Assembly (NCBI RefSeq): GCF_000227685.2
Contig: NZ_CP007029.1
Coordinates: 2,888,501-2,952,500, forward strand
Length of the DNA stretch: 64,000 nt
DNA from: Thioalkalivibrio paradoxus ARh 1
GTDB taxonomy: Bacteria > Pseudomonadota > Gammaproteobacteria > Ectothiorhodospirales > Ectothiorhodospiraceae
Direction: 5' to 3'
Shown here piece after piece: positions 3,894 through 52,733 of this stretch. The stretch's first letter is position 1, and every line of letters begins with the position of its first letter. Position numbers and translations under genes: made by a program. Below the pieces are notes generated by a model, which saw only the letters and a program-made list of their open reading frames with translations, searched no databases and was not told the DNA's origin.

Positions 3894-4584
3894 CCTCCTG
3901 CACCCCGGCGGGGCACGCTGAATGGACCGTTTTCCTGGATACCGCAGCACCGCGTCCTGTCGCTGGGAACGCGCCCGATCGGGGCTTGGTCGGCAATCCG
4001 GCGCTCACAATCTGCGCTCGGAGAGCCGAAGACCGTCTGCCTCGCAATGGTGTGCGGTTCACGTCTCTACTCGCTCATCGGCCGATCGAAACGGCCTATG
4101 CCTGCTTTCACTGCCCGCGGCCACTCGACCGCCATGAAACGGCGGTCCGGAATGCGAGTGGCCAGCGGATTTCGGTAATCACCTGGAGAATGTGCTGTCG
4201 TTGTCGGTATTCCCTCCGCTTCGTCTGGATTGCGACAGGTCAAGCAGGCTGCGTGCCAACTCGCACCAAGACCCAATATCAGTGACTTAGAAACGCGCGA
4301 CTGGCCGACTGCCGGCGGACCGTGTCTTTTCACACACCTTGGGGCGCGCCAGATCCCACACCTGCAGGCACCCCCACACCCGGCTTCGCCGGCATGGTGA
4401 CCGATTCACTGCGTCACCCCAGGCCGGGCTGTCTCCCCGCCGCCGATGCCCCTAGAATGGCGCACACGGGAGACGCCGCACGGCTTCGAACGCCGCACAC
4501 CTCGTCTTGGTGGCTCCCGCAGCGGTCTCCCCGGGACGACACTCGCCCGCTGCGGCATCGTCGGCAAGCCATTAGGAAGGAGTC
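3894..4584. other. Long intergenic region, no recognisable gene
   Basis: About 690 bases without a supportable gene. Short frames exist on both strands but have no domain or usual codon pattern. Part of it (about 4130-4300) looks AT-richer than the flanks. A 7-bp perfect hairpin (GACCGCC / GGCGGTC, loop ATGAAAC) sits at 4127-4147 without a T-tract. It may hold decayed sequence or a small RNA; nothing specific can be claimed. Confidence 0.45.
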
Positions 4585-5283
4585 TTGGAACACAGCATCG
4601 CCATAGCGTTCCTGATCGGGCTCGCCAGCACCCTGCACTGCGTCGGCATGTGCGGGGGAATCAGCGGCGCACTGACACTGAGCCTCCCGGAGGACGTGCG
4701 AAAGCGACGGACGCGTCTATTCACCTTCGTCCTCGCCTACGGCCTCGGGCGCATCGGAAGCTACGCGCTGGCAGGCGGCATCGCGGGTGTGGTTGGCGCC
4801 ATCCTGCTGCGCGGTGGCGGCGACACCGGCGCGCTCCACCTCATTGCCCAGCTGTTCGCGGCCACGATACTGGCCGGCATCGGCCTGTATCTTGCCGGGT
4901 GGTTCCCGGGATTCGCGCAGTTGGAACGCCTGGGCGCACCGGCCTGGCGTCGAATTGAACCTTGGGGCCGCCGCCTGCTGCCGGTGTCGTCGCCGCTGCA
5001 GGCCCTGCTGTTCGGGGCCGCCTGGGGCTGGCTGCCATGCGGTCTCGTCTACTCGATGCTGATCTGGACCCTGGCCACTGCGGACGCCCTGCAAGGAGCC
5101 CTGCTGATGCTCGCATTCGGCGCCGGCACTCTGCCCGGCGTGATGGCCGCAGGAATCTTTGCCGCCTGGCTGGTCCGGCTGGCACGGGCGCCACATCTGC
5201 GCCAAGCCATCGGTCTGCTGATCGTGATCGTCGCGCTTGCCACCATCGTCTATTCGCTAACGGGCAGCGTGAACCACCACTAG
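4585..5283 (+). CDS. TauE/SafE-type (DUF2-like, UreH-like) transmembrane protein
   Basis: The 232-residue membrane protein has about six helices. The N-terminal motif LASTLHCVGMCGGISGAL (H-C-x-G-M-C-G-G) is diagnostic of the sulfite-exporter/UreH-like family often found beside ccoGHIS and copper-handling genes; a second matching block is GWLPCGLVYSML. The paired Cys-containing half-domains resemble the DsbD transmembrane fold. The start is TTG at 4585, with AAGGAG only two bases before it and overlapping GGAAGG slightly further off. Substrate is unknown. The nearby copC-copD makes metal or thiol traffic plausible, but the genes are separated by several kilobases. Confidence 0.75.
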   Translation: MEHSIAIAFLIGLASTLHCVGMCGGISGALTLSLPEDVRKRRTRLFTFVLAYGLGRIGSYALAGGIAGVVGAILLRGGGDTGALHLIAQLFAATILAGIGLYLAGWFPGFAQLERLGAPAWRRIEPWGRRLLPVSSPLQALLFGAAWGWLPCGLVYSMLIWTLATADALQGALLMLAFGAGTLPGVMAAGIFAAWLVRLARAPHLRQAIGLLIVIVALATIVYSLTGSVNHH

Positions 5284-5505
5284 CCAGGATCAACCCGGCC
5301 CCTGTCTGGGCACCTCGCAGCGCATCCCGGCATCCCGCGCGGGCGATACCCAGCCCCGGCCCGGAGCCGATGGCCGATACCGCTGGTCAGCCCTGGCCTC
5401 GGCTGCCGCAGGCGAGATTGGCCAACCCCAACTGCTGGACCGGCCAGCACCCAGGGTCGCACTGAAACGCCACGAGTCGCCCACGTACTCAGGCAGCCGG
5501 GAACC

Positions 5506-5958
5506 TTACTGGTTGACCCAGCGGCCCTGTGCGTCGCGGCACGCGGTGCCGACGATGGTTTCGGGCCGGCCATCGATCTCACCGTGGATGCGGTACTCCC
5601 GGCAGTCCTGCCCGGCAGACTGGTACGTCCGCACCGGAGTCGCCTGGTACTGGTGGCCCGTGTTCGGGTTGTTCCAGGCCACCGTTCGGTTATCGGGAAC
5701 GGTCTCGAGCGTATGGTAGACTTGGCGCTGGTCGGTCGCATCCATGCTGCGGCCAATGGCGCCGCCGATCATCGCACCGGCAAGCGTGCCGGCAATGATC
5801 GCCGCGGTGCGACCGCTTCCGGCCCCCACCTGGGTTCCCAGCAACCCCCCCAGCACACCGCCAACGGCGGCCCCGGTCTGCTGCTGTGTCGGCTGAGTGG
5901 CGCAGCCCCCCAGACTTACTGCGAGTATTGCCAGTACTCCGGCATGCATGAGCTTCAT
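5506..5958 (-). CDS. Glycine-zipper surface-antigen-type lipoprotein
   Basis: The 150-residue product has a lipoprotein signal with lipobox VSLGGC (Cys ~19), so it should be anchored in a membrane facing the periplasm or surface. Residues ~28-70 are glycine/alanine rich with GxxxG repeats (GGVLGGLLG, GTLAGAMIGGAIG), the glycine-zipper domain of the rickettsial 17-kDa antigen family. The C-terminal half (RTYQSAGQDCREYRI...GTACRDAQGRW) matches the RT0821/Lpp0805-like surface domain with two conserved Cys. Function in the family is unclear; envelope integrity is often suggested. It is transcribed alone. Confidence 0.85.
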   Translation of the reverse strand: MKLMHAGVLAILAVSLGGCATQPTQQQTGAAVGGVLGGLLGTQVGAGSGRTAAIIAGTLAGAMIGGAIGRSMDATDQRQVYHTLETVPDNRTVAWNNPNTGHQYQATPVRTYQSAGQDCREYRIHGEIDGRPETIVGTACRDAQGRWVNQ

Positions 5959-6387
5959 ATCGTCACCTCGTTGTACCTACCGTATCGGCACGAAGGTCCA
6001 GTCGCCGTCGTTGCCAGAGAGCGTAGTCGAAACTCCCTGAACGGGAGGTGAAGTCCCCTGAAGTTTCGGACATTATCCGTTCGGGCACGGTCGCGGTCGC
6101 CCAGGTCTTCCGGGACTTGGCCACCTTGGTAGGGGTCGGCCCATAGCGGGCAACAACCGCACGCACAGTTCTGTCCGCAACCTGCTCGAATGTGAACCCC
6201 CGCGGCACCGTGGCGACACTGCGCAGCGCACCACGAAATCAGTTGCCCGGGGCATCATGCTCTCACCCGAGACCTGAACCGGGGCCGCGACGTTGGTCGC
6301 CAGGCTCGCGACGGCCGGGGCGGCTCCGCCACAGCTGTGCCCTGCAGACCCGGTGCGCGGGATTGCCCTGGATCGTACCAGCATTTC
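5959..6387. other. Intergenic region between lipoprotein and PIN toxin genes
   Basis: About 430 bases with no supportable gene. A partly paired stretch at 6028-6068 (outer arms CGAAACT / AGTTTCG) lies about 70-110 bases upstream of the lipoprotein start and may belong to its leader. It marks the start of the accessory region. Confidence 0.4.
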
Positions 6388-6768
6388 CTACCGAAGAACC
6401 CGAATCTCGATACCGAGATTGAGCCGGGCCCACGCCCGGTCGGCAGTAATCACCGGCAACCCCTTGTCCATCGCCAGCGCCAAACACGCCCGGCCGGCAA
6501 GCGACAAACCATGATTCCGGGTATGGGACCAGAGCCATGCAGCCGTCTCGGCCTGCTGCGACGTGAAAGGCTCGAATCTCACCCCCACCTCGGTGAATTC
6601 CTGCCCCATCCCTGCGACATCCACGCCTTGTCGTAGCGATTTCTGCAGGAGCTCAGACCAATTCACCACAGAGACGCGGGCACCCTCCAGGGCTGGAGAA
6701 ACCTTCTCCCCACCCGGTTCATCATGCAGGAACGCCAGCAGAGCCGAGGCATCGAGGACCACGCTCAC
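6388..6768 (-). CDS. PIN-domain (VapC-like) toxin, probably catalytically altered
   Basis: A 126-residue single PIN domain. Asp6 (VVLDASALLAF), Glu39 (VVNWSELL) and Asp110 (LPVITADRAW) fit three of the metal-binding acidic residues of PIN ribonucleases. In relatives the third motif reads L-G-D-R-A-C-L-A; here it reads LAGRACLALA, so the expected Asp is Gly92. VapC toxins cleave specific RNAs, usually tRNA or rRNA loops; loss of one acidic residue should weaken or abolish this. The start codon overlaps the stop of the upstream AbrB-like gene by four bases, a standard toxin-antitoxin layout. Confidence 0.8.
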   Translation of the reverse strand: MSVVLDASALLAFLHDEPGGEKVSPALEGARVSVVNWSELLQKSLRQGVDVAGMGQEFTEVGVRFEPFTSQQAETAAWLWSHTRNHGLSLAGRACLALAMDKGLPVITADRAWARLNLGIEIRVLR

Positions 6769-7034
6769 CGCTCCCGGTCCTCCCGCGCTGCTTCCGCACG
6801 CCGTTCGGCGATCAGTTCCTCGGCCAGTCGGACATCCCCCGATATGTGCCGAAACCGGTCGCGCAATCTCTTTTCGACGGTCTCTCGACGTTCCAGTACC
6901 AGACTTTCACCGACTGCTCGGGCAACCAATCGGTCTCCGGGCTTCAGCTTCAGCGCCTTGCGTAGGCCGGCCGGTATCACGATCCGGCCTTGGGCACCAA
7001 CCTGAACCTCGTTCTCACCGACTGCCATGCGCAT
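6765..7034 (-). CDS. AbrB/MazE-type antitoxin
   Basis: The 89-residue protein opens with a swapped-hairpin AbrB domain (residues ~8-50: VQVGAQGRIVIPAGLRKALKLKPGDRL), which binds DNA as a dimer. A charged C-terminal helix (residues ~52-89) is the usual toxin-wrapping tail. Starts at ATG 7034 or ATG 7028 are both possible. It is the first gene of a two-gene operon with the PIN protein and should repress that operon; an 8-bp inverted repeat just upstream is a candidate operator. The partner's altered active site suggests that the antitoxin may be kept mainly as a regulator. Confidence 0.82.
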   Translation of the reverse strand: MRMAVGENEVQVGAQGRIVIPAGLRKALKLKPGDRLVARAVGESLVLERRETVEKRLRDRFRHISGDVRLAEELIAERRAEAAREDRER

Positions 7035-7044
7035 GACCTACGTT

Positions 7045-7064
7045 CCACGCTTGACGAAGCGTGG
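7045..7064. promoter_or_regulatory. Perfect 8-bp inverted repeat upstream of the antitoxin gene
   Basis: CCACGCTT-GACG-AAGCGTGG begins 11 bases upstream of the antitoxin start at 7034. AbrB-type antitoxins normally autoregulate through such palindromes, so this is the natural candidate operator; binding itself is inferred. Confidence 0.5.
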
Positions 7065-7201
7065 CACCCCCTCGTTCTGATGTCCACTCGCAAGCCATCC
7101 GGCCACCTCGTTTGGAAATTTCGCGCAGTTCAAAGTATCGTCCACTCATCTACTAACTGTCATGGCGCGGGCAGCCACCCCATGAGGATGAAAGTGGCGT
7201 A

Positions 7202-7355
7202 GGCGTAGGGCGGAAAAGGCCGAAGGCCGTCATCCGCCATCCGGCGCCCGGGTTGCCGCAGGCGCCGGGGAGGCGCGAACGCCGAGCGGCGGATGACGCT
7301 GCGCTTTTCCGCCCTACGGGTCGCCCGGGACACGAGACAGGCCGTGACTTTCACG
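7202..7355 (+). repeat. Palindromic element, copy 1
   Basis: 154 bases, preceded by a type A spacer at 7154-7201 and followed by a type B spacer. Ends GGCGTAGGGCGG and TTTCACGC are intact. Confidence 0.88.
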
Positions 7356-7397
7356 CTAACTGTCATGGCCTATGTGGCCACCCCCGATGATGAAAGA

Positions 7398-7542
7398 GGC
7401 GTAGGGCGGAAAAGGCCGAAGGCCGTCATCCGCCAGCTGGCGCCCGGATTGCCGCAGGCGCCAGGGAGGCGCGAACGCCGAGCGGCGGATGACGCTGCGC
7501 TTTTCCGCCCTACGGGTCGCCCGAGACACGAGACAGGCCGTG
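7398..7542 (+). repeat. Palindromic element, copy 2 (split by the group II intron)
   Basis: Runs as in the other copies to ...ACAGGCCGTG. The last ten bases, ACTTTCACGC, are found beyond the intron at 9424-9433, so this copy is the intron's insertion site. Confidence 0.88.
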
Positions 7543-7582
7543 GGTGAGTCGGCCACGGGAACTGCCCCCATGGCCGCTCGCA

Positions 7583-7616
7583 GAACCCGGCGTGAGCCTC
7601 TCGACTCACCGGGCTC
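7583..7616 (-). ncRNA. Group II intron domain V
   Basis: On the minus strand a 34-nt hairpin opens GAGCCCGGTGAGTC, closes on a GAGA tetraloop and returns GGCTCACGCCGGGTTC, with the internal bulge and near-AGC triad position expected of the catalytic domain V. The RT stop codon TGA lies inside its left strand. Confidence 0.9.
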
Positions 7617-8868
7617 CCATTGTTCCGACCACGAACGCCCCGCGCCCGCACCAATGCGGAAACAACGCGGGGAATCGGCGCTTGACGCGCGCAAGCCAGG
7701 CAAACGCCCGGTGCTTATGCCCGCGCAAGCGTTTGTATTTCCTCATGGCCCAACGAACAATCACCCGGTCGATATGAGCCGCGACCGGCTGAAATTCGGA
7801 TCCACGAAACCGACAGTAGTACGCCATCCAGCCACGAATGCGAGGAGCCAGATACTCCGCGAGAGACCCAAGAGACAGGTCACTTCGCAGCGAAAGTCGA
7901 CGCCGCCGCAAAGACTGGCGCATCGCGGTCATCGACTGGCGACTGACCGCAGGCGTAAACCCAGTGCGGACCTTGCCATGACGAGTTAGGATGCGCCGGG
8001 GCCTAAACGTGTAGCCCAGGAAGTCGAACTGTATATGGTCGTGGGTTCCGGTTCGCCTGCTGTCCTTGCAATACACCACCCGGGTCTTGTCCGGGTGCAT
8101 CTCCAGTCCGACCGCGGCCAGCCGCTCCTCCAAATGCGTCCGCATTTGCAGCGCTTCGGCCTCCGTTCGGCAGTGCAAGATGCCATCATCCGCGTAGCGG
8201 CAAAACGGGATATCGGCGTGGAAGCGTGATAGCCAGTGGTCCAATGCGTAATGCAGAAACAGGTTGGCAAGAATCGGCGATAGCGGCCCGCCTTGCGGCG
8301 TACCCATCGTCCGCGCCTGCCCCGACCCGTCCCGCATCTGCATCGGCGCCGCCAACCAACGCTCCACGTACAGCAAAACCCATTTTTCCGAGCAATGATA
8401 CCTGAGTGCTTTCAGGAGAAGGCCGTGGTCGATGTTGTCAAACAGGCCGCGAATGTCATATTCCAGCACCCAGTCGCGCTCCCAGCACCGTTTGCGGGTG
8501 ATGGCAAGCGCATCGTGCGCTGATCTACCGGGCCGGTAGCCGTAGGAGTCCGCATGAAAAACGGGCTCCAGGATCGGCTCCAACACGAGCGCCACCACAG
8601 TCTGGGCGATGCGATCGCCGACCGTCGGGACGCCCAACATCCGCTCACCTCCAGATTTCTTGGGAATCGGTACCGCTTTCACCGACGGCGGAAAATAACT
8701 GCCCGATGACATCCGATTCCAGATCCGGTAGAGATTCCTGCTGAGGTCACGATCAAACTCCGCGATCGTTTCCCCATCCACACCGGCCGCTCCTCGATTG
8801 GCCTTTACGCGCTGGTATGCCTCCCACACCAGCATCTTGGAAATATCAAACGGTCTCATTGGTGCCAC
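7606..8868 (-). CDS. ltrA: Group II intron reverse transcriptase/maturase
   Basis: The 420-residue protein carries RT blocks in order: GVDG near residue 30, YRPGRSAHDAL (~111), the palm motif YDIRGLFDNIDH (~137), TPQGGPLSPILANL (~190) and the catalytic YADD at 225-228. A maturase X domain follows (FLGYTF, then RIRGWMAYY...). There is no C-terminal H-N-H endonuclease, so mobility would rely on RNP-only target pairing at single-stranded or hairpin DNA. GTG 8868 is chosen because GAGGAGG sits eight bases upstream; ATG 8859 is an alternative. The frame appears intact. The stop codon overlaps domain V, which is unusual for an intron ORF. Confidence 0.92.
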   Translation of the reverse strand: MAPMRPFDISKMLVWEAYQRVKANRGAAGVDGETIAEFDRDLSRNLYRIWNRMSSGSYFPPSVKAVPIPKKSGGERMLGVPTVGDRIAQTVVALVLEPILEPVFHADSYGYRPGRSAHDALAITRKRCWERDWVLEYDIRGLFDNIDHGLLLKALRYHCSEKWVLLYVERWLAAPMQMRDGSGQARTMGTPQGGPLSPILANLFLHYALDHWLSRFHADIPFCRYADDGILHCRTEAEALQMRTHLEERLAAVGLEMHPDKTRVVYCKDSRRTGTHDHIQFDFLGYTFRPRRILTRHGKVRTGFTPAVSRQSMTAMRQSLRRRRLSLRSDLSLGSLAEYLAPRIRGWMAYYCRFRGSEFQPVAAHIDRVIVRWAMRKYKRLRGHKHRAFAWLARVKRRFPALFPHWCGRGAFVVGTMGAR

Positions 8869-9474
8869 GGACTCATCCTCCTCTCGAAGTTGGTTCGTGA
8901 CCCAATCGGAACAACTCGATCCCTTCGCTCGGCGGCCATTACAGACGCTTCGTCGCTCGTACGGATCGATCCGTCCTCGGCTCGTGCATCGGTACTCTCC
9001 GTCTCGCTTTTCTTCACTTGACGTTCTCCCTTCACATCACGATCCCGAGTTCCCGCAGTTCCACTCAAGCGCCTGAATCAAACTCGCGCCATCTCTATGC
9101 CGGACATCATCCACCCAGTAAACAGGTTTCCGGTGGATTGCTCCCAAAAGTAAAAGTGGCCTTTGGTTTTGATGTCACCTATCAGTTTCGACACCTCGAC
9201 GATGGTTCGTGGTCACTCGCCTTCTTGATTCGTACCTGACATACCACGTGGGTATGCCTTTTCCCTCGATGCTCACGACAACGGTCTTCAGCCAATGCCG
9301 CTCGGGGCGGTTTGGAGCCGGCCCCTGTAGGCAGACTCCGGAGGGTCGGTCCCTCCATCACTTGAGCAGCTTCTAGTGCTTCATGGCAGACTCCTGTCAT
9401 CCAATCCGCACGCTGCGGCACACACTTTCACGCTAACTGTCATGGCCTATGTGGCCACCCCCGATGATGAAAGA

Positions 9475-9629
9475 CGCGTAGGGCGGAAAAGGCCGAAGGC
9501 CGTCATCCGCCAGCTGGCGCCGGGGTTGCCGCAGGCGCCAAGCAGGCGCGAACGCCGAGCGGCGGATGACGCTGCGCTTTTCCGCCCTACGGGTCGCCCG
9601 AAACACGAGACAGGCCGTGACTTTCACGC
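9475..9629 (+). repeat. Palindromic element, copy 3
   Basis: 155 bases after a type B spacer (9434-9474). The left end reads CGCGTAGGG instead of GGCGTAGGG; otherwise nearly identical to copy 4. Confidence 0.88.
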
Positions 9630-9670
9630 TAACTGTCATGGCCTATGTGGCCACCCCCGATGATGAAAGA

Positions 9671-9825
9671 GGCGTAGGGCGGAAAAGGCCGAAGGCCGTC
9701 ATCCGCCAGCTGGCGCCGGGGTCGCCGCAGGCGCCAGGGAGGCGCGAACGCCGAGCGGCGGATGACGCTGCGCTATTCCGCCCTACGGGTCGCCCGGGAC
9801 ACGAGACAGGCCGTGACTTTCACGC
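9671..9825 (+). repeat. Palindromic element, copy 4
   Basis: 155 bases after a type B spacer (9630-9670). One arm base differs (CTATTCCGCC for CTTTTCCGCC). Confidence 0.88.
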
Positions 9826-9873
9826 TAACTGTCATGGCGCGGGCAGCCACCCCATGAGGATGAAAGAGGCGTA

Positions 9874-10028
9874 GGCGTAGGGCGGAAAAGGCCGAAGGCC
9901 GTCATCCGCCATCCGGCGCCGGGGTTGCCGTAGGCGCCGGGGAGGCGCGAACGCCGTACGGCGGATGACGCTGCGCTCTTCCGCCCTACGGGTCGCCCGG
10001 GACACGAGACAGGCCGTAACTTTCACGC
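9874..10028 (+). repeat. Palindromic element, copy 5
   Basis: 155 bases after a type A spacer (9826-9873), with a short GGCGTA duplication at the junction. The central part reads GCGAACGCCGTACGGCGG, differing from copies 1-4. Confidence 0.88.
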
Positions 10029-10069
10029 TAACTGTCATGGCCTATGTGGCCACCCCCGAGGATGAAAGA

Positions 10070-10224
10070 GGCGTAGGGCGGAAAAGGCCGAAGGCCGTCA
10101 TCCGCCATCCGGCGCCCGGATTGCCGCAGGCGCCTGGGCGTTACGAACGCCGTACGGCGGATGACGCTGCGCTATTCCGCCCTACGGGTCGCCCGGGACA
10201 CGAGACAGGCCGTGACTTTCACGC
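10070..10224 (+). repeat. Palindromic element, copy 6
   Basis: 155 bases after a type B spacer (10029-10069). The array ends after it with TAAC and then unrelated sequence. Confidence 0.88.
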
Positions 10225-10291
10225 TAACAGGCGGTTGAACCCCCTCGCCGTTCGCGATCTTGGTCGGAGTGCGGAGACAGGAGAGGGAACG

Positions 10292-10465
10292 TCAATGCGC
10301 GGGAAGCGCGGCACGCAGGTCGATGTCGAGATCCCGATCCGATGCACCGATCTGGGCATGGGGGTCGTACTTGTCCGGGCAGAACGGGAGCCCCAGCCGG
10401 CCGCGCTCCACCGGCCCCAGGGTGTCGATCTGCAGCGGGTGGCTCTGGCTCGTGCGCGCATGCAT
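10292..10465 (-). pseudogene. Truncated CDKN3-like dual-specificity phosphatase
   Basis: An open frame of about 57 residues begins MHARTSQSHPLQIDTLGP and continues RGRLGLPFCPDKYDPHA and DRDLDIDL before an early stop. The string TSxSHPLQI...GxxGLxFCPxKxDPxA...DRDLxxDL is, as I recall it, the N-terminal signature of bacterial CDKN3-like phosphatases; the catalytic Cys-Arg loop, normally further on, is absent. The homology ends about 60 bases before the repeat array, so array growth or a deletion may have removed the rest. Assignment rests on motif memory only. Confidence 0.45.
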
Positions 10466-10584
10466 GACGCTGTCTCTCCCGTTACCGATGCCCTGCCTGC
10501 TCTCCAGCATACGGGGACTGGCTCAGGAAGTGAGCCAGCCCGTGCGCCCAGTGCAATTCTCGAGCGCAAGCACAGGGTCACTCT

Positions 10585-11133
10585 GTGAGCCACCGGCCCG
10601 ACCATGCTGGTAGCTCCACCGGGTCGCTGACCGGAGGGGTGCTGGCGGTACTGGTTTCAGCGCTCGCCGAGGGGCGCACGCTCACTCAGGGACTGGCGGA
10701 TGCCAAGGACTGTCCGGTCCAGAGAGCCGGTCACGAGGAGACCCTCGGGGCGCTCGAGCAGGCGGAACGGCTGGCGGCATCGACGAGCGCTCCGGCAGCC
10801 GCGATCGCCGAGCTCGGCGAGGGCTGGATCGCCGAAGAGGCGCTGGCCATCGCGGTCTACTGCGCGCTAGTCGCCCGCGACTTCCGCCACGGCGTGGTCC
10901 TGGCCGTGAACCACGACGGCGACTCCGATTCCACCGAGGCCATCACCGGCAACCTGCTGGGGGCCCGGTACGGAGTGAGCGCGATTGCGGCCGAGTGGCT
11001 CGAGCCGCTCGAGTTGCGGGAGGTGATCGCCAAGATCGCGGAAGACCTGTTCGCGTTCCGGGAGTGGCAGTTGGGCGCGTCCAGCGAAGACGACGATCGG
11101 AACCGGCGGATCCGGGACAAGTATCCAGAATAG
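10585..11133 (+). pseudogene. N-terminally truncated ADP-ribosylglycohydrolase
   Basis: A 182-codon frame from GTG 10585. From about residue 13 it matches the C-terminal half of the ADP-ribosylglycohydrolase (DraG) fold: GSLTGGVLAVLVSAL, GWIAEEALAIAVYCALVA, HGVVLAVNHDGDSDSTEAITGNLLGA and EWLEPLELREVI. The motif DGDSDSTEAITGN provides one Mg-binding half-site, but the N-terminal half with its DDT/TD motif is missing. The fragment could be translated but should not be active. It lies back to back with the phosphatase remnant, and both stop at broken ends, so a single deletion/rearrangement may have hit a former phosphatase/ADP-ribose-hydrolase pair. Confidence 0.8.
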
Positions 11134-11558
11134 TGGAACGGGCTGTCGGAGCGACCGTGACATGGGAGCTTGGCGGGGCTTGGCAAGCATTGTCACTCCT
11201 GACTATCACGCAACCGCCGCAAACTGGAACCGGCCGTCTTCGAAAACACCGTCATCGCGAGAAGCGAAGCCTTTGGCCGCGAGCGAAGCGTGGCGGGAAG
11301 TGGCGACCCAAACGGCGTTAGTCCTCCCGACGCCGCCTGGATTGCTTCGCTACGCTCGCAATGACGACCTACGCAGAGCGGTGCCGCACTCGCTGTGGAG
11401 GTTTCGTGATAATCAGCTTCCCAACCCCGGCCGTGCCGGGGCAGGCGTTCACGGAAAAACGGGGCTGGGGTGCGGCACATTGGCGATCTCGTACCCCATT
11501 GATTTCACAACAAGTATGTCGTTTGTTTCTCAAGAGCTGGTCACTTGGAGGCGCGATC
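11134..11558. other. Intergenic region between the two ADP-ribosylglycohydrolase genes
   Basis: About 425 bases without a supported gene. It contains the palindromic repeat at 11250-11366 and the ribosome-binding site of the next gene (GGAGG at 11547-11551). Confidence 0.5.
11250..11366. repeat. Second type of palindromic intergenic repeat
   Basis: The left arm CGTCATCGCGAGAAGCGAAGC (minus strand: GCTTCGCTTCTCGCGATGACG) pairs with the right arm GCTTCGCTACGCTCGCAATGACG about 70 bases on. Sequences of the form ATTGCTTCGCT...CTCGCAATGACG are a familiar intergenic repeat type in many proteobacterial genomes. It is unrelated to the 155-bp elements. Confidence 0.7.
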
Positions 11559-12389
11559 ATGATTGGGGCCATCGCAGGGGACATCATCGGATCCGTGTAC
11601 GAACACCGTCCGATCAAGTCGAAGGCGTTCAACCTGTTTGATCCGCGGTGCCGGTTCACGGACGACACCGTGCTCACGGTGGCGCTCGCTGACACCCTGC
11701 TGACGGGCACGCCGTACGTGGACAACCTGAGAATTTACCATGACCGGTATCCGGACCGCGGCTACGGCCGCAGCTTTCGCCGCTGGGCGCGCAGCCCTTC
11801 CCCGGCGCCCTATGGCAGCTGGGGCAACGGCGCGGCCATGCGGATCAGTCCGGTCGGCTACGCCTTCGATGATCTCGACACGGTGCTTCGGCAGGCCGAG
11901 GCATTCACCGTCGTCACGCACAACCATCCCGAGGGGATCAAGGGCGCGCAGGCGGTGGCTGCCGCCATCTTCCTGGCCCGCACCGGGGAGACCCGGGACG
12001 CCATTCGCGACACCATCGAAACGCGCTTCGGGTACGATCTGAACCAGCACACGGACGCGATCCGGCCGGGCTACACGTTCGACGTGTCGGCGGCAGGTAC
12101 CGTCCCGCAGGCGATCCGCGCCTTCCTCGATTCCACAGACTTCGAAGATGCGATCCGCATCGCGATCTCCCTGGGCGGCGATGCCGACACGCTCGCGTGC
12201 ATCACCGGAGGGATCGCGCAGGCGTTCTACCGCAACGTTCCGAATAGGATCCAGGTGCCGGTCTACCGGATCCTGGACGACCGGCTCGGGCAGACCGTGC
12301 TCCGGTTCATGCAGCGCTACGCTGAGTTCTGCCGCGAAACTTCGGCAGGCAACCAGAAAGGAAAAAGCCCGTCAGAACATGGAGCATAA
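11559..12389 (+). CDS. ADP-ribosylglycohydrolase family protein
   Basis: A 276-residue DraG-type enzyme. MIGAIAGDIIGSVYE opens the fold; FTDDTVLTVALAD (~residues 33-45) gives the N-terminal Mg-binding acidic motif, and SLGGDADTLACITGGIAQAFY (~205-225) gives the C-terminal one. Such enzymes remove ADP-ribose from arginine or other residues, or from nucleic acid bases or free ligands; the substrate here is not visible. ATG 11559 is chosen over upstream in-frame codons because GGAGG stands seven bases before it. A long hairpin spans the stop codon. No ADP-ribosyltransferase is seen in the window. A second, truncated paralogue lies just upstream. Confidence 0.88.
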   Translation: MIGAIAGDIIGSVYEHRPIKSKAFNLFDPRCRFTDDTVLTVALADTLLTGTPYVDNLRIYHDRYPDRGYGRSFRRWARSPSPAPYGSWGNGAAMRISPVGYAFDDLDTVLRQAEAFTVVTHNHPEGIKGAQAVAAAIFLARTGETRDAIRDTIETRFGYDLNQHTDAIRPGYTFDVSAAGTVPQAIRAFLDSTDFEDAIRIAISLGGDADTLACITGGIAQAFYRNVPNRIQVPVYRILDDRLGQTVLRFMQRYAEFCRETSAGNQKGKSPSEHGA

Positions 12390-12411
12390 GCGCCTGTTCT
12401 GACGGGCTTTG
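12362..12411. terminator. Bidirectional terminator with perfect 16-bp stem
   Basis: AAAGCCCGTCAGAACA (12364-12379) pairs perfectly with TGTTCTGACGGGCTTT (12395-12410) around a 15-base loop. A-runs and T-runs flank the stem, so it can terminate the hydrolase gene on the plus strand and the tRNA transcript on the minus strand. The hydrolase stop codon TAA (12387-12389) lies in the loop. Confidence 0.85.
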
Positions 12412-12430
12412 ACTTGCTGTTACAGTGAAA

Positions 12431-12507
12431 TGGCGGAGCGGACGGGACTCGAACCCGCGACCCCCGGCGTGACAGGCCGGTATTCTAACCAACTGAACTA
12501 CCGCTCC
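12431..12507 (-). tRNA. tRNA-Asp (anticodon GUC)
   Basis: A 77-nt cloverleaf: acceptor GGAGCGG/CCGCTCC, anticodon loop CTGTCAC with GTC, T arm GGGTTCGAGTCCC and genomically encoded CCA. It is probably the last gene of a transcript running from lon or hupB through tRNA-Val. The accessory region begins just beyond its 3' end. Confidence 0.96.
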
Positions 12508-12525
12508 AGAAATCGTGATACATGC

Positions 12526-12601
12526 TGGTGGGTGCTGACGGGATCGAACCGCCGACATTCGCCTTGTAAGGGCGACGCTCTACCAGCTGAGCTAAGCACC
12601 C
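12526..12601 (-). tRNA. tRNA-Val (anticodon UAC)
   Basis: A 76-nt cloverleaf: acceptor GGGTGCT/AGCACCC-type pairing, anticodon loop with TAC (CCCTTACAAGG), T arm CGGTTCGATCCCG and encoded CCA. It is 18 bases upstream of tRNA-Asp and 12 bases after the hupB stop. Confidence 0.96.
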
Positions 12602-12613
12602 TGCGAAAGCTCG

Positions 12614-12886
12614 CTAGTTTACTCGATCCTTTAGGGCTTTGCCAGCCTTGAACGACGGTGTCCGCGAAGCCGCGATCTGGATGGCTTCGCCGGTGCGCGG
12701 GTTGCGACCGCTACGCGCCGGCCGCTCGCGGACCACGAAGGTGCCGAAACCGACCAGCGACACCTGGCTTCCATCCGCCAGTTCATCGCCTACCACGTCG
12801 GTTAGCGCGTCGATCACGCGCCCCGCCTGCGCCTTCGGGACATCCGCCCTTTCGGCGATCGCATCAATCAGTTCGGATTTGTTCAT
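12614..12886 (-). CDS. hupB: DNA-binding protein HU-beta
   Basis: The 90-residue protein has the HU length and signature: [14 protein letters not shown] start, [23 protein letters not shown] (beta arm with the conserved GRNP/TGE) and a C-terminal helix ending [14 protein letters not shown] compacts and bends DNA as a dimer. It lies downstream of lon on the same strand, as in E. coli (lon-hupB), separated by 237 bases that probably carry its own promoter. Two tRNA genes follow where other genomes usually have ppiD. Confidence 0.96.
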
Positions 12887-31620: not shown

Positions 31621-31776
31621 GCGTGCAAGTCACGGCCTGTCTCGTGCCCCGGGCGACCCGTAGGGCGGAAAAGCGCAGCGTCATCCGCCGCTCGGCGTTC
31701 GCGCCTCCCCGGCGCCTGCGGCAACCCCGGCGTGGGAATGGCGGATGACGGCCTTCGGCCTCTTCCGCCCTACGCC
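31621..31776 (-). repeat. Palindromic element, copy 7 (solitary, reversed)
   Basis: 156 bases. Read on the minus strand it runs from GGCGTAGGGCGG to GACTTGCACGC and matches the six array copies at 7.2-10.2 kb in length and sequence, including the GTAGGGCGGAA / TTTTCCGCCCTAC arms. It has no coding capacity. Confidence 0.9.
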
Positions 31777-31806
31777 TGATGCAGCGGGCACCGTTGCCGG
31801 GGCTTA
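31777..31806 (+). repeat. 30-bp direct repeat, right copy
   Basis: Identical to 31591-31620; continues into the intact terminator hairpin. Confidence 0.9.
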
Positions 31807-51935: not shown

Positions 51936-52733
51936 ATGATCAGGTTCAGAACTTTCGGACTGCCGGTATTTGCGATGCTGGCGCTGGGCACGAACCAGGC
52001 CGCGTTGGCCGACTCGGAGCAGGAATTGCAGCGCGGTGCCGGCGCAGACGACGCCGGCCTCCTGATGCTGGCGCAACAGACTCCGCGCAGCACGTTCCGT
52101 GGCCAGCCGGAGTATCCGCCGCCCGACTACCTGGCCGAGTTCGAGGAAGGAGAGCAGCGCGAGACCCAGCGGCAGCGGCAGGATTCCGGCCAGCGCTTCG
52201 ACCCGCGCAGTGTGGACCGCGGACAAGCGGCCCCGGAGTTCGCGCCCGGCGGCTACGACCGCAGCCTCCCCGGCCGCGCGGGCGAACGCGCGCAAACGCC
52301 CCGCACCGACTTCGGTTCGGTGACCGGGTACGGCAGCGCACCGGCCACCCCTGGCACGATGCCCCGGCGCGGCGACTACGGTGAGCCCCGGCGCGGCGAC
52401 TACGGTGAGCCCCGGCGCGGCGACTACGGTGACCCGTACCGGCCGGGCGCGGTTCCCGGCGATCGGGGCCGCATGCCGGATCCGCGCGACCGCAGGCCCC
52501 CGACGACCGGCGCCGGCGAATACCCGGGTGACCAACCGCGCTGGCCGGAGCGCCCACCGGCGCCCACCGGCGAACACCAGTGGCCGACCGCACCTGGGGG
52601 CAGCTACCTCACCCGGCCCGAGTTTCCCTCGGCGCAGCGGGAACGCAGCCGACCGGACGCGCCCTCTCGCGACTTCCCGGACGCGCCGGAATTCCCAGCG
52701 CCGGGCCGCGGCAGCTTCGACTGGCAGCGGTAG
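51936..52733 (+). CDS. Exported Pro/Arg-rich protein with tandem repeat, unknown function
   Basis: A 265-residue protein (ATG 51936; GTG 51930 is in frame) with a signal peptide (MIRFRTFGLPVFAMLALGTNQAALA). The rest is low-complexity and disordered, rich in Pro, Arg, Gly, Asp and Glu. Residues ~143-166 hold three perfect tandem copies of PRRGDYGE/D. Paired motifs such as PEYPPPDYLAEFEEGEQRE and ADDAGLLMLAQQ have no known family. No catalytic domain is seen. It could be a periplasmic scaffold or envelope protein. It is divergent from the BCCT gene. The reading frame is supported by the signal peptide and codon pattern. Confidence 0.7.
   Translation: MIRFRTFGLPVFAMLALGTNQAALADSEQELQRGAGADDAGLLMLAQQTPRSTFRGQPEYPPPDYLAEFEEGEQRETQRQRQDSGQRFDPRSVDRGQAAPEFAPGGYDRSLPGRAGERAQTPRTDFGSVTGYGSAPATPGTMPRRGDYGEPRRGDYGEPRRGDYGDPYRPGAVPGDRGRMPDPRDRRPPTTGAGEYPGDQPRWPERPPAPTGEHQWPTAPGGSYLTRPEFPSAQRERSRPDAPSRDFPDAPEFPAPGRGSFDWQR
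52362..52433 (+). repeat. 24-bp tandem repeat, three copies
   Basis: Three head-to-tail 24-bp units (52362-52385, 52386-52409, 52410-52433). They are identical except for the last base of the third, so each adds eight residues in frame. Such repeats change copy number by slippage. Confidence 0.9.

Follow-up and report, generated by a model that had tools for sequence, protein, structure and literature searches.

Background

REPs carrying a GTAG tag have been reported in Thioalkalivibrio, and both REP doublets and tandem clusters of REPINs together with their flanks are in print, according to the accessible parts of three sources (PMC3733652, PMC3116915, PMC2817692). One of these, in the portion available, also speaks of clusters without order, in which unrelated REPINs had inserted into older ones or beside them (PMC3116915), and an excerpt of another paper describes mobile elements inserting in REPs (PMC1525189). 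Ordered tandem clusters of REPs or REPINs are usually read as duplications. No description of the 196-bp frame or of the mixed-cargo arrays presented below was found in the open-licence literature.

The stretch of DNA that was analysed (the window) comprises 64,000 nucleotides of the Thioalkalivibrio paradoxus ARh 1 chromosome and contains an array of hairpin-forming repeats. On balance we favour the view that this array consists of six stacked members of a family of short non-coding mobile units in Thioalkalivibrio, whose arrays probably lengthen, for the most part, as units that are not sisters stack onto one another in a fixed orientation.

Results and discussion

A six-unit array interrupted by a group II intron

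Six repeat copies, all in a single orientation, were found at window positions 7153–10228 (Table 1). Between units 2 and 3 lies a group II intron, which accounts for their distance of 2077 bp, and when it is taken out the units are spaced 196–203 bp apart; the register being intact without the intron, the copies therefore belong to one six-unit array. The original prediction of six copies with palindromic cores and two types of spacer agreed with this, but the intron splitting the array had gone unnoticed. The palindromic core of 119 nt folds with -46.8 kcal/mol (DNA parameters, no shuffled control). The spacers are the left arms of the units and fall into types A and B, and since copies that stand alone at other loci end on both sides as the stacked ones do, the repeat unit is the whole of ~196 bp including the spacer. 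An assembly artefact is unlikely, as the chromosome is single and finished according to the part of PMC4653848 available (here one contig of 3,756,729 bases) and there are many array loci, some of them common to a relative.

The intron has catalytic RNA domains, with Rfam matches on the minus strand to RF01999 (9234–9356, 90.7 bits) and RF00029 (7543–7618, 50 bits), and encodes a reverse transcriptase with a maturase domain; an endonuclease domain was absent from the Pfam matches of this reading frame. A single extra G, base 7543, lies between unit 2 and the intron. Two further intron copies show 100% reported identity over 1883–1886 bases, and a reading of their flanks suggests that they sit in the same end of an IS-like element. 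The 5' exon ends in GGAAGT or AGAAGT at the other copies, compared with GAAAGT in the array. The divided unit shows that the intron inserted into unit 2, at its right end, later than the array.

Table 1. Positions of the array units and of the group II intron (window coordinates unless a locus is given)
Feature	Position	Strand	Remarks
Unit 1	7153–7354	+	left arm type A
Unit 2	7355–7542	+	left arm type B; cut by the intron, final 8 bases (ACTTTCAC) at 9424–9431
Unit 3	9432–9627	+	left arm type B
Unit 4	9628–9823	+	left arm type B
Unit 5	9824–10026	+	left arm type A
Unit 6	10027–10222	+	left arm type B, differing middle
Closing core GCTAAC	10223–10228	+	at the right-hand edge
Group II intron, 1880 bp	7544–9423	-	5' end GTGTGCCG at 9423; ends from the sequence and from other copies
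Intron-encoded reverse transcriptase/maturase, 420 aa	7606–8868	-	RVT_1 and GIIM over cut-off (Pfam)
Further intron copy, L010	G000:C1:843901-845786		
Further intron copy, L011	G000:C1:709420-711302		

Anatomy and size of the family

From left to right a unit consists of the left arm (made up of YTAACTNNCATG, a short hairpin whose loop varies, and GATGAAAG), a pair of inverted GTAG REPs and the right end TTTCACG, after which comes YTAA, and a YTAAC core is present at every junction between units. Like REPINs/BIMEs the units contain inverted GTAG palindromes, GTAGGGCGG...CCGCC and its inverted partner, which were read directly, and they are dispersed in high copy number. The right REP half has 188 matches in the genome (91 forward and 97 reverse, with at most 3 mismatches), and the reversed pattern used as control has none in either direction. 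The catalogue comprises at least 140 units, 83 of them full length, at no fewer than 95 loci. A model of the left arm found at least 146 arms at E ≤0.1 (150 of 4090 candidates scored), 65 on the plus and 81 on the minus strand; as a check on replication-strand bias, the difference between genome halves gave p=0.046 when the origin is assumed to be at the contig start. Covariation in the hairpin is weak, with a double change in 8 of 40 sequences, all at one base pair. Matches to the unit were obtained in 20 of the 58 genomes searched, including its own, and every genome with E <1e-8 is a Thioalkalivibrio.

Among 25 newly read left arms, which are a subset of all arms, 19 run into a unit with a REP core and six are truncated, interrupted or followed by other cargo; a gene-bearing unit was looked for and none of the 25 proved to be one. 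At L248, near G000:C1:1371151, the left arm is broken a short way into the REP core, apparently by an insertion sequence, and the insertion at L047 seems to be close to a gene start. The window holds an extra truncated copy on the minus strand (31622–31777) and, separately, a 24-bp tandem repeat in three perfect copies (52361–52432).

For the 95 loci among the matches listed, in which the window array enters as two loci of 2 and 4 units, 59 have one unit, 30 have two, three have three and three have four. With 36 of these 95 loci being multi-unit, regular arrays are not unusual in this genome.

Orientation and kinship of neighbouring units

Neighbours at a distance of up to 60 bp have the same orientation in 45 cases and the opposite in none, and wherever two full ends meet, at 29 junctions, the register is kept to within 1 bp. 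Kinship was compared for 100 of the 140 units (model start ≤8, end ≥160). Outside the window, none of 38 array units has its nearest relative in its own array, and the mean identity within arrays is 0.885 (19 pairs) against 0.879 between loci (4352 pairs), a within-array value reached in 24.9% of 2000 permutations. In the window array, five of six units are nearest to an array mate (units 1 and 5, and units 2, 3 and 4), with a mean identity of 0.931 and margins over outside units of 0.002 to 0.009. Taken over all arrays the count is 5 of 44, the mean of 1000 shuffles being 0.70 and their maximum 5. The difference between the window array and the other arrays suggests that in the former both A and B units were probably amplified locally, and the latter look like stacks of non-sister units.

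The two spacer types are left-arm subfamilies which are present at other loci as well, and together with the apparently non-sister neighbours in other arrays this upholds the earlier argument that simple local duplication is insufficient to give two spacer types. A more elaborate alternative is that a REPIN and its flanks were duplicated in tandem on the spot, or multiplied by unequal crossing-over, followed by gene conversion from dispersed copies that masks the kinship. The published ordered REPIN clusters are near-identical repeats with flanks, in the part of PMC3116915 available, and the mutual nearness of units within the window array fits this, as do the middle variants common to units 1 and 2 of L041 within each species. 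So does the pair at L035, where the units are 95.7% identical over 162 bp and ~25 bp of outside flank is repeated with the unit, a local duplication that includes the flank; unequal recombination, or copying that takes one flank with it, as originally suggested, has one example but is not supported as a general rule. Against such duplication stand the absence of array-mate kinship in all 38 units of the other arrays, mixed-cargo junctions falling at the exact core, and the two units of L038, which are only 0.809 identical to each other and yet occupy a site that is empty in the relative. Duplication masked by conversion is hence judged unlikely as the general explanation, and stacking of non-sister units is preferred.

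When arrays were compared pairwise, the similarity between first units and that between second units gave r=0.32 (153 array pairs), and some dimers may move as one. The left arm contains GTCA in 20 of 31 downstream units, as against 25 of 69 that stand alone or come first in their array (p=0.01), which is no more than suggestive of a junction-specific left arm.

Comparison with a related genome

A closed genome of 4,002,350 bases from the same genus (G010), which we take to be T. nitratireducens, was used for comparison. Both flanks of 18 loci were found in the stretches fetched from it, some of them paralogous, and three loci gave base-exact empty sites, CTAAC (L026), CTGAC (L035) and ATAAC (L038), several others being too diverged to call. 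These three sites show that units inserted at NTRAC, and the earlier suggestion that a mobile system is involved finds its support here.

Array length also differs between the relatives, in line with a comparison originally proposed: at L054 and L058b there are two type I units (the kind described above) in T. paradoxus and one in the relative. The single unit of the relative matches neither of the T. paradoxus units best, which is not predicted by simple stacking and is a weak point of that model; another is that conversion could hide old duplications. The second units of L041 seem to be orthologues in the two species, and the agreement of the middles of units 1 and 2 within each species points to gene conversion that homogenises neighbouring units.

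The window array has no counterpart at the corresponding location, window positions 4500–6073 and 12431–12650 being 61 bases apart in the relative, beside tRNA-Asp. The ~6.4 kb in between (6074–12430), with a PIN-domain gene, the array, the intron and ADP-ribosylglycohydrolase genes, are missing at the matching place and look like an island or a deletion. Positions 6120–7105 match the relative at another location, and no unit was found beside the PIN-gene region there. Within the same segment two adjoining reading frames (10585–12389) match ADP_ribosyl_GH, one over its C-terminal half only, and on their sequence the pair appears to be a partial duplicate.

Units with other cargo

Two other palindromic units have the same ends, type II (a model of 134 bp) and type III (162 bp, from three copies), and GTAG was not seen in the printed copies of either. 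Type II has 23 matches genome-wide with E 2e-8 or better, and in the loci that were fetched eight of its matches lie directly against a type I unit. The junctions were read solely at loci chosen for the presence of type I, and at those in T. paradoxus there are 56 neighbour pairs within 30 bp, none in opposite orientation and 11 of mixed type. Nine of these 11 are joined within 1 bp. Partial matches (scores 66 and 37) are involved in two of the 11. In the relative all eight neighbour pairs have the same orientation and six are of mixed type. One locus, L050, has the order I-II-III.

In integron arrays, too, cassettes with different cargo follow one another head-to-tail, joined at a core that all of them have, and the attC sites of their cassettes have the paired core motif RYYYAAC...GTTRRRY. 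Units of this kind moved by a tyrosine recombinase were considered, also since a match to an integron integrase that exceeds the NCBIfam cut-off, spread over two reading frames and so probably frameshifted, is present at G000:C1:2413512-2414454 (L265, L266, L269). However, the junction (CG)CTAAC does not fit RYYYAAC/GTTRRRY, the 29 kb around the integrase hold no strict attC and, of the unit, a weak partial REP core alone, and the exchange at L035 falls to the left of the third core base (one case), which together make an integron-like origin improbable.

What the mixed-type arrays might represent instead, tentatively and with more doubt than confidence, is a class of gene-free mobile cassettes in which at least three interchangeable palindromic cargoes are carried by a common frame (left hairpin arm, YT/RAC core and TTTCACG) and stacked head-to-tail, much as integron cassettes would be if they lacked genes and a platform. 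If so, the REPIN-like repeats in Thioalkalivibrio would be passengers of a separate recombination system, because types II and III are without GTAG in the printed copies.

Ends of the units and a candidate enzyme

At the left end the core has an invariable fifth base (C in 65 of 67), which at the right end varies more (C in 40 of 59), and in 19 of 44 copies the tetramers of the two ends agree, as compared with 17.4 after shuffling. These figures suit an exchange inside YT/RA, with one half from each partner, better than a target duplication, the empty sites being few. Each of the three filled sites has two cores and the corresponding empty site one, which taken alone is compatible with a target duplication, and YTAA flanks most copies on both sides; a miniature inverted-repeat element with a DDE transposase and a target duplication of 4–5 bp (YTAA/YTRAC) would account for both, and for the one NTRAC in each empty site. 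The tetramer agreement at shuffled level and the unequal fifth base speak against it, as do the two ends, which in the sequence do not form a matching inverted repeat, and we regard such an element as very improbable.

With stacking through exchange at the core as the preferred reading, the process may be pictured as follows. A unit would enter the chromosome at an NTRAC site, as seen at the three empty sites, and since a resident unit has the core at both ends, later units would tend to insert at these ends, oriented as the resident is. Units that are not sisters would in this way come to form head-to-tail arrays in exact register, as the kinship and the mixed-cargo junctions suggest, and gene conversion and some local duplication, the latter probably in the window, would rework them.

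TnpA_REP nucleases cleave at CT (PMC8266576, in the excerpt available), and judged by its position in the sequence the core is compatible with CT processing. Our best guess for the enzyme, and a tentative one, is an HUH nuclease that acts on single strands and cuts at CT as TnpA_REP does. The unit was absent from the 32 Y1-transposase loci read (~1.6 to 3.4 kb), which were taken from 77 listed across 30 Thioalkalivibrio genomes. A cognate RAYT flanked by the REP of the unit was seen at none of these 32 and at none of the three Y1_Tnp loci of T. paradoxus read with wider flanks; a cognate RAYT is not required in every REP family. At L061, near G000:C1:2073295-2073510, there is a short Y1-transposase reading frame, and the adjoining repeats seem, from translated reading frames, to be of another GTAG type.

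Comparison with known systems

The empty sites, the differences in array length and the mixed-cargo junctions, from two closely related finished genomes, point to self-targeted, orientation-specific insertion. If this is true, the frame that moves and the REP core are distinct things, and the precisely defined ends of the frame enable a search for the enzyme.

Unlike integron cassettes the units are gene-free and without an attC consensus, and no attI platform was seen beside the arrays read. With the TnpA_REP and IS200-IS605 systems they have in common terminal hairpins and orientation-specific behaviour, and a putative exchange inside YT/RA would fit cutting at CT (PMC8266576, as far as available), but no unit-linked enzyme was found in the loci read, types II and III are without GTAG in the printed copies, and the unit is known here from its sequence alone. 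In structure the units resemble REPINs/BIMEs, in which, according to the available parts of the sources, two inverted GTAG-tagged palindromes around a linker occur in high copy number, as singles and in tandem clusters (PMC3116915, PMC3733652, PMC2817692). The units differ from these by the larger frame of ~196 bp with conserved ends, by the ordered arrays of non-sisters and by other cargo between the same ends, and no linked RAYT was found in the loci read. Finally, a mobile element lies within a REP-type array, as in the excerpt on elements inserting in REPs (PMC1525189), but the element here is a group II intron, with two other copies in the end of an IS-like element.
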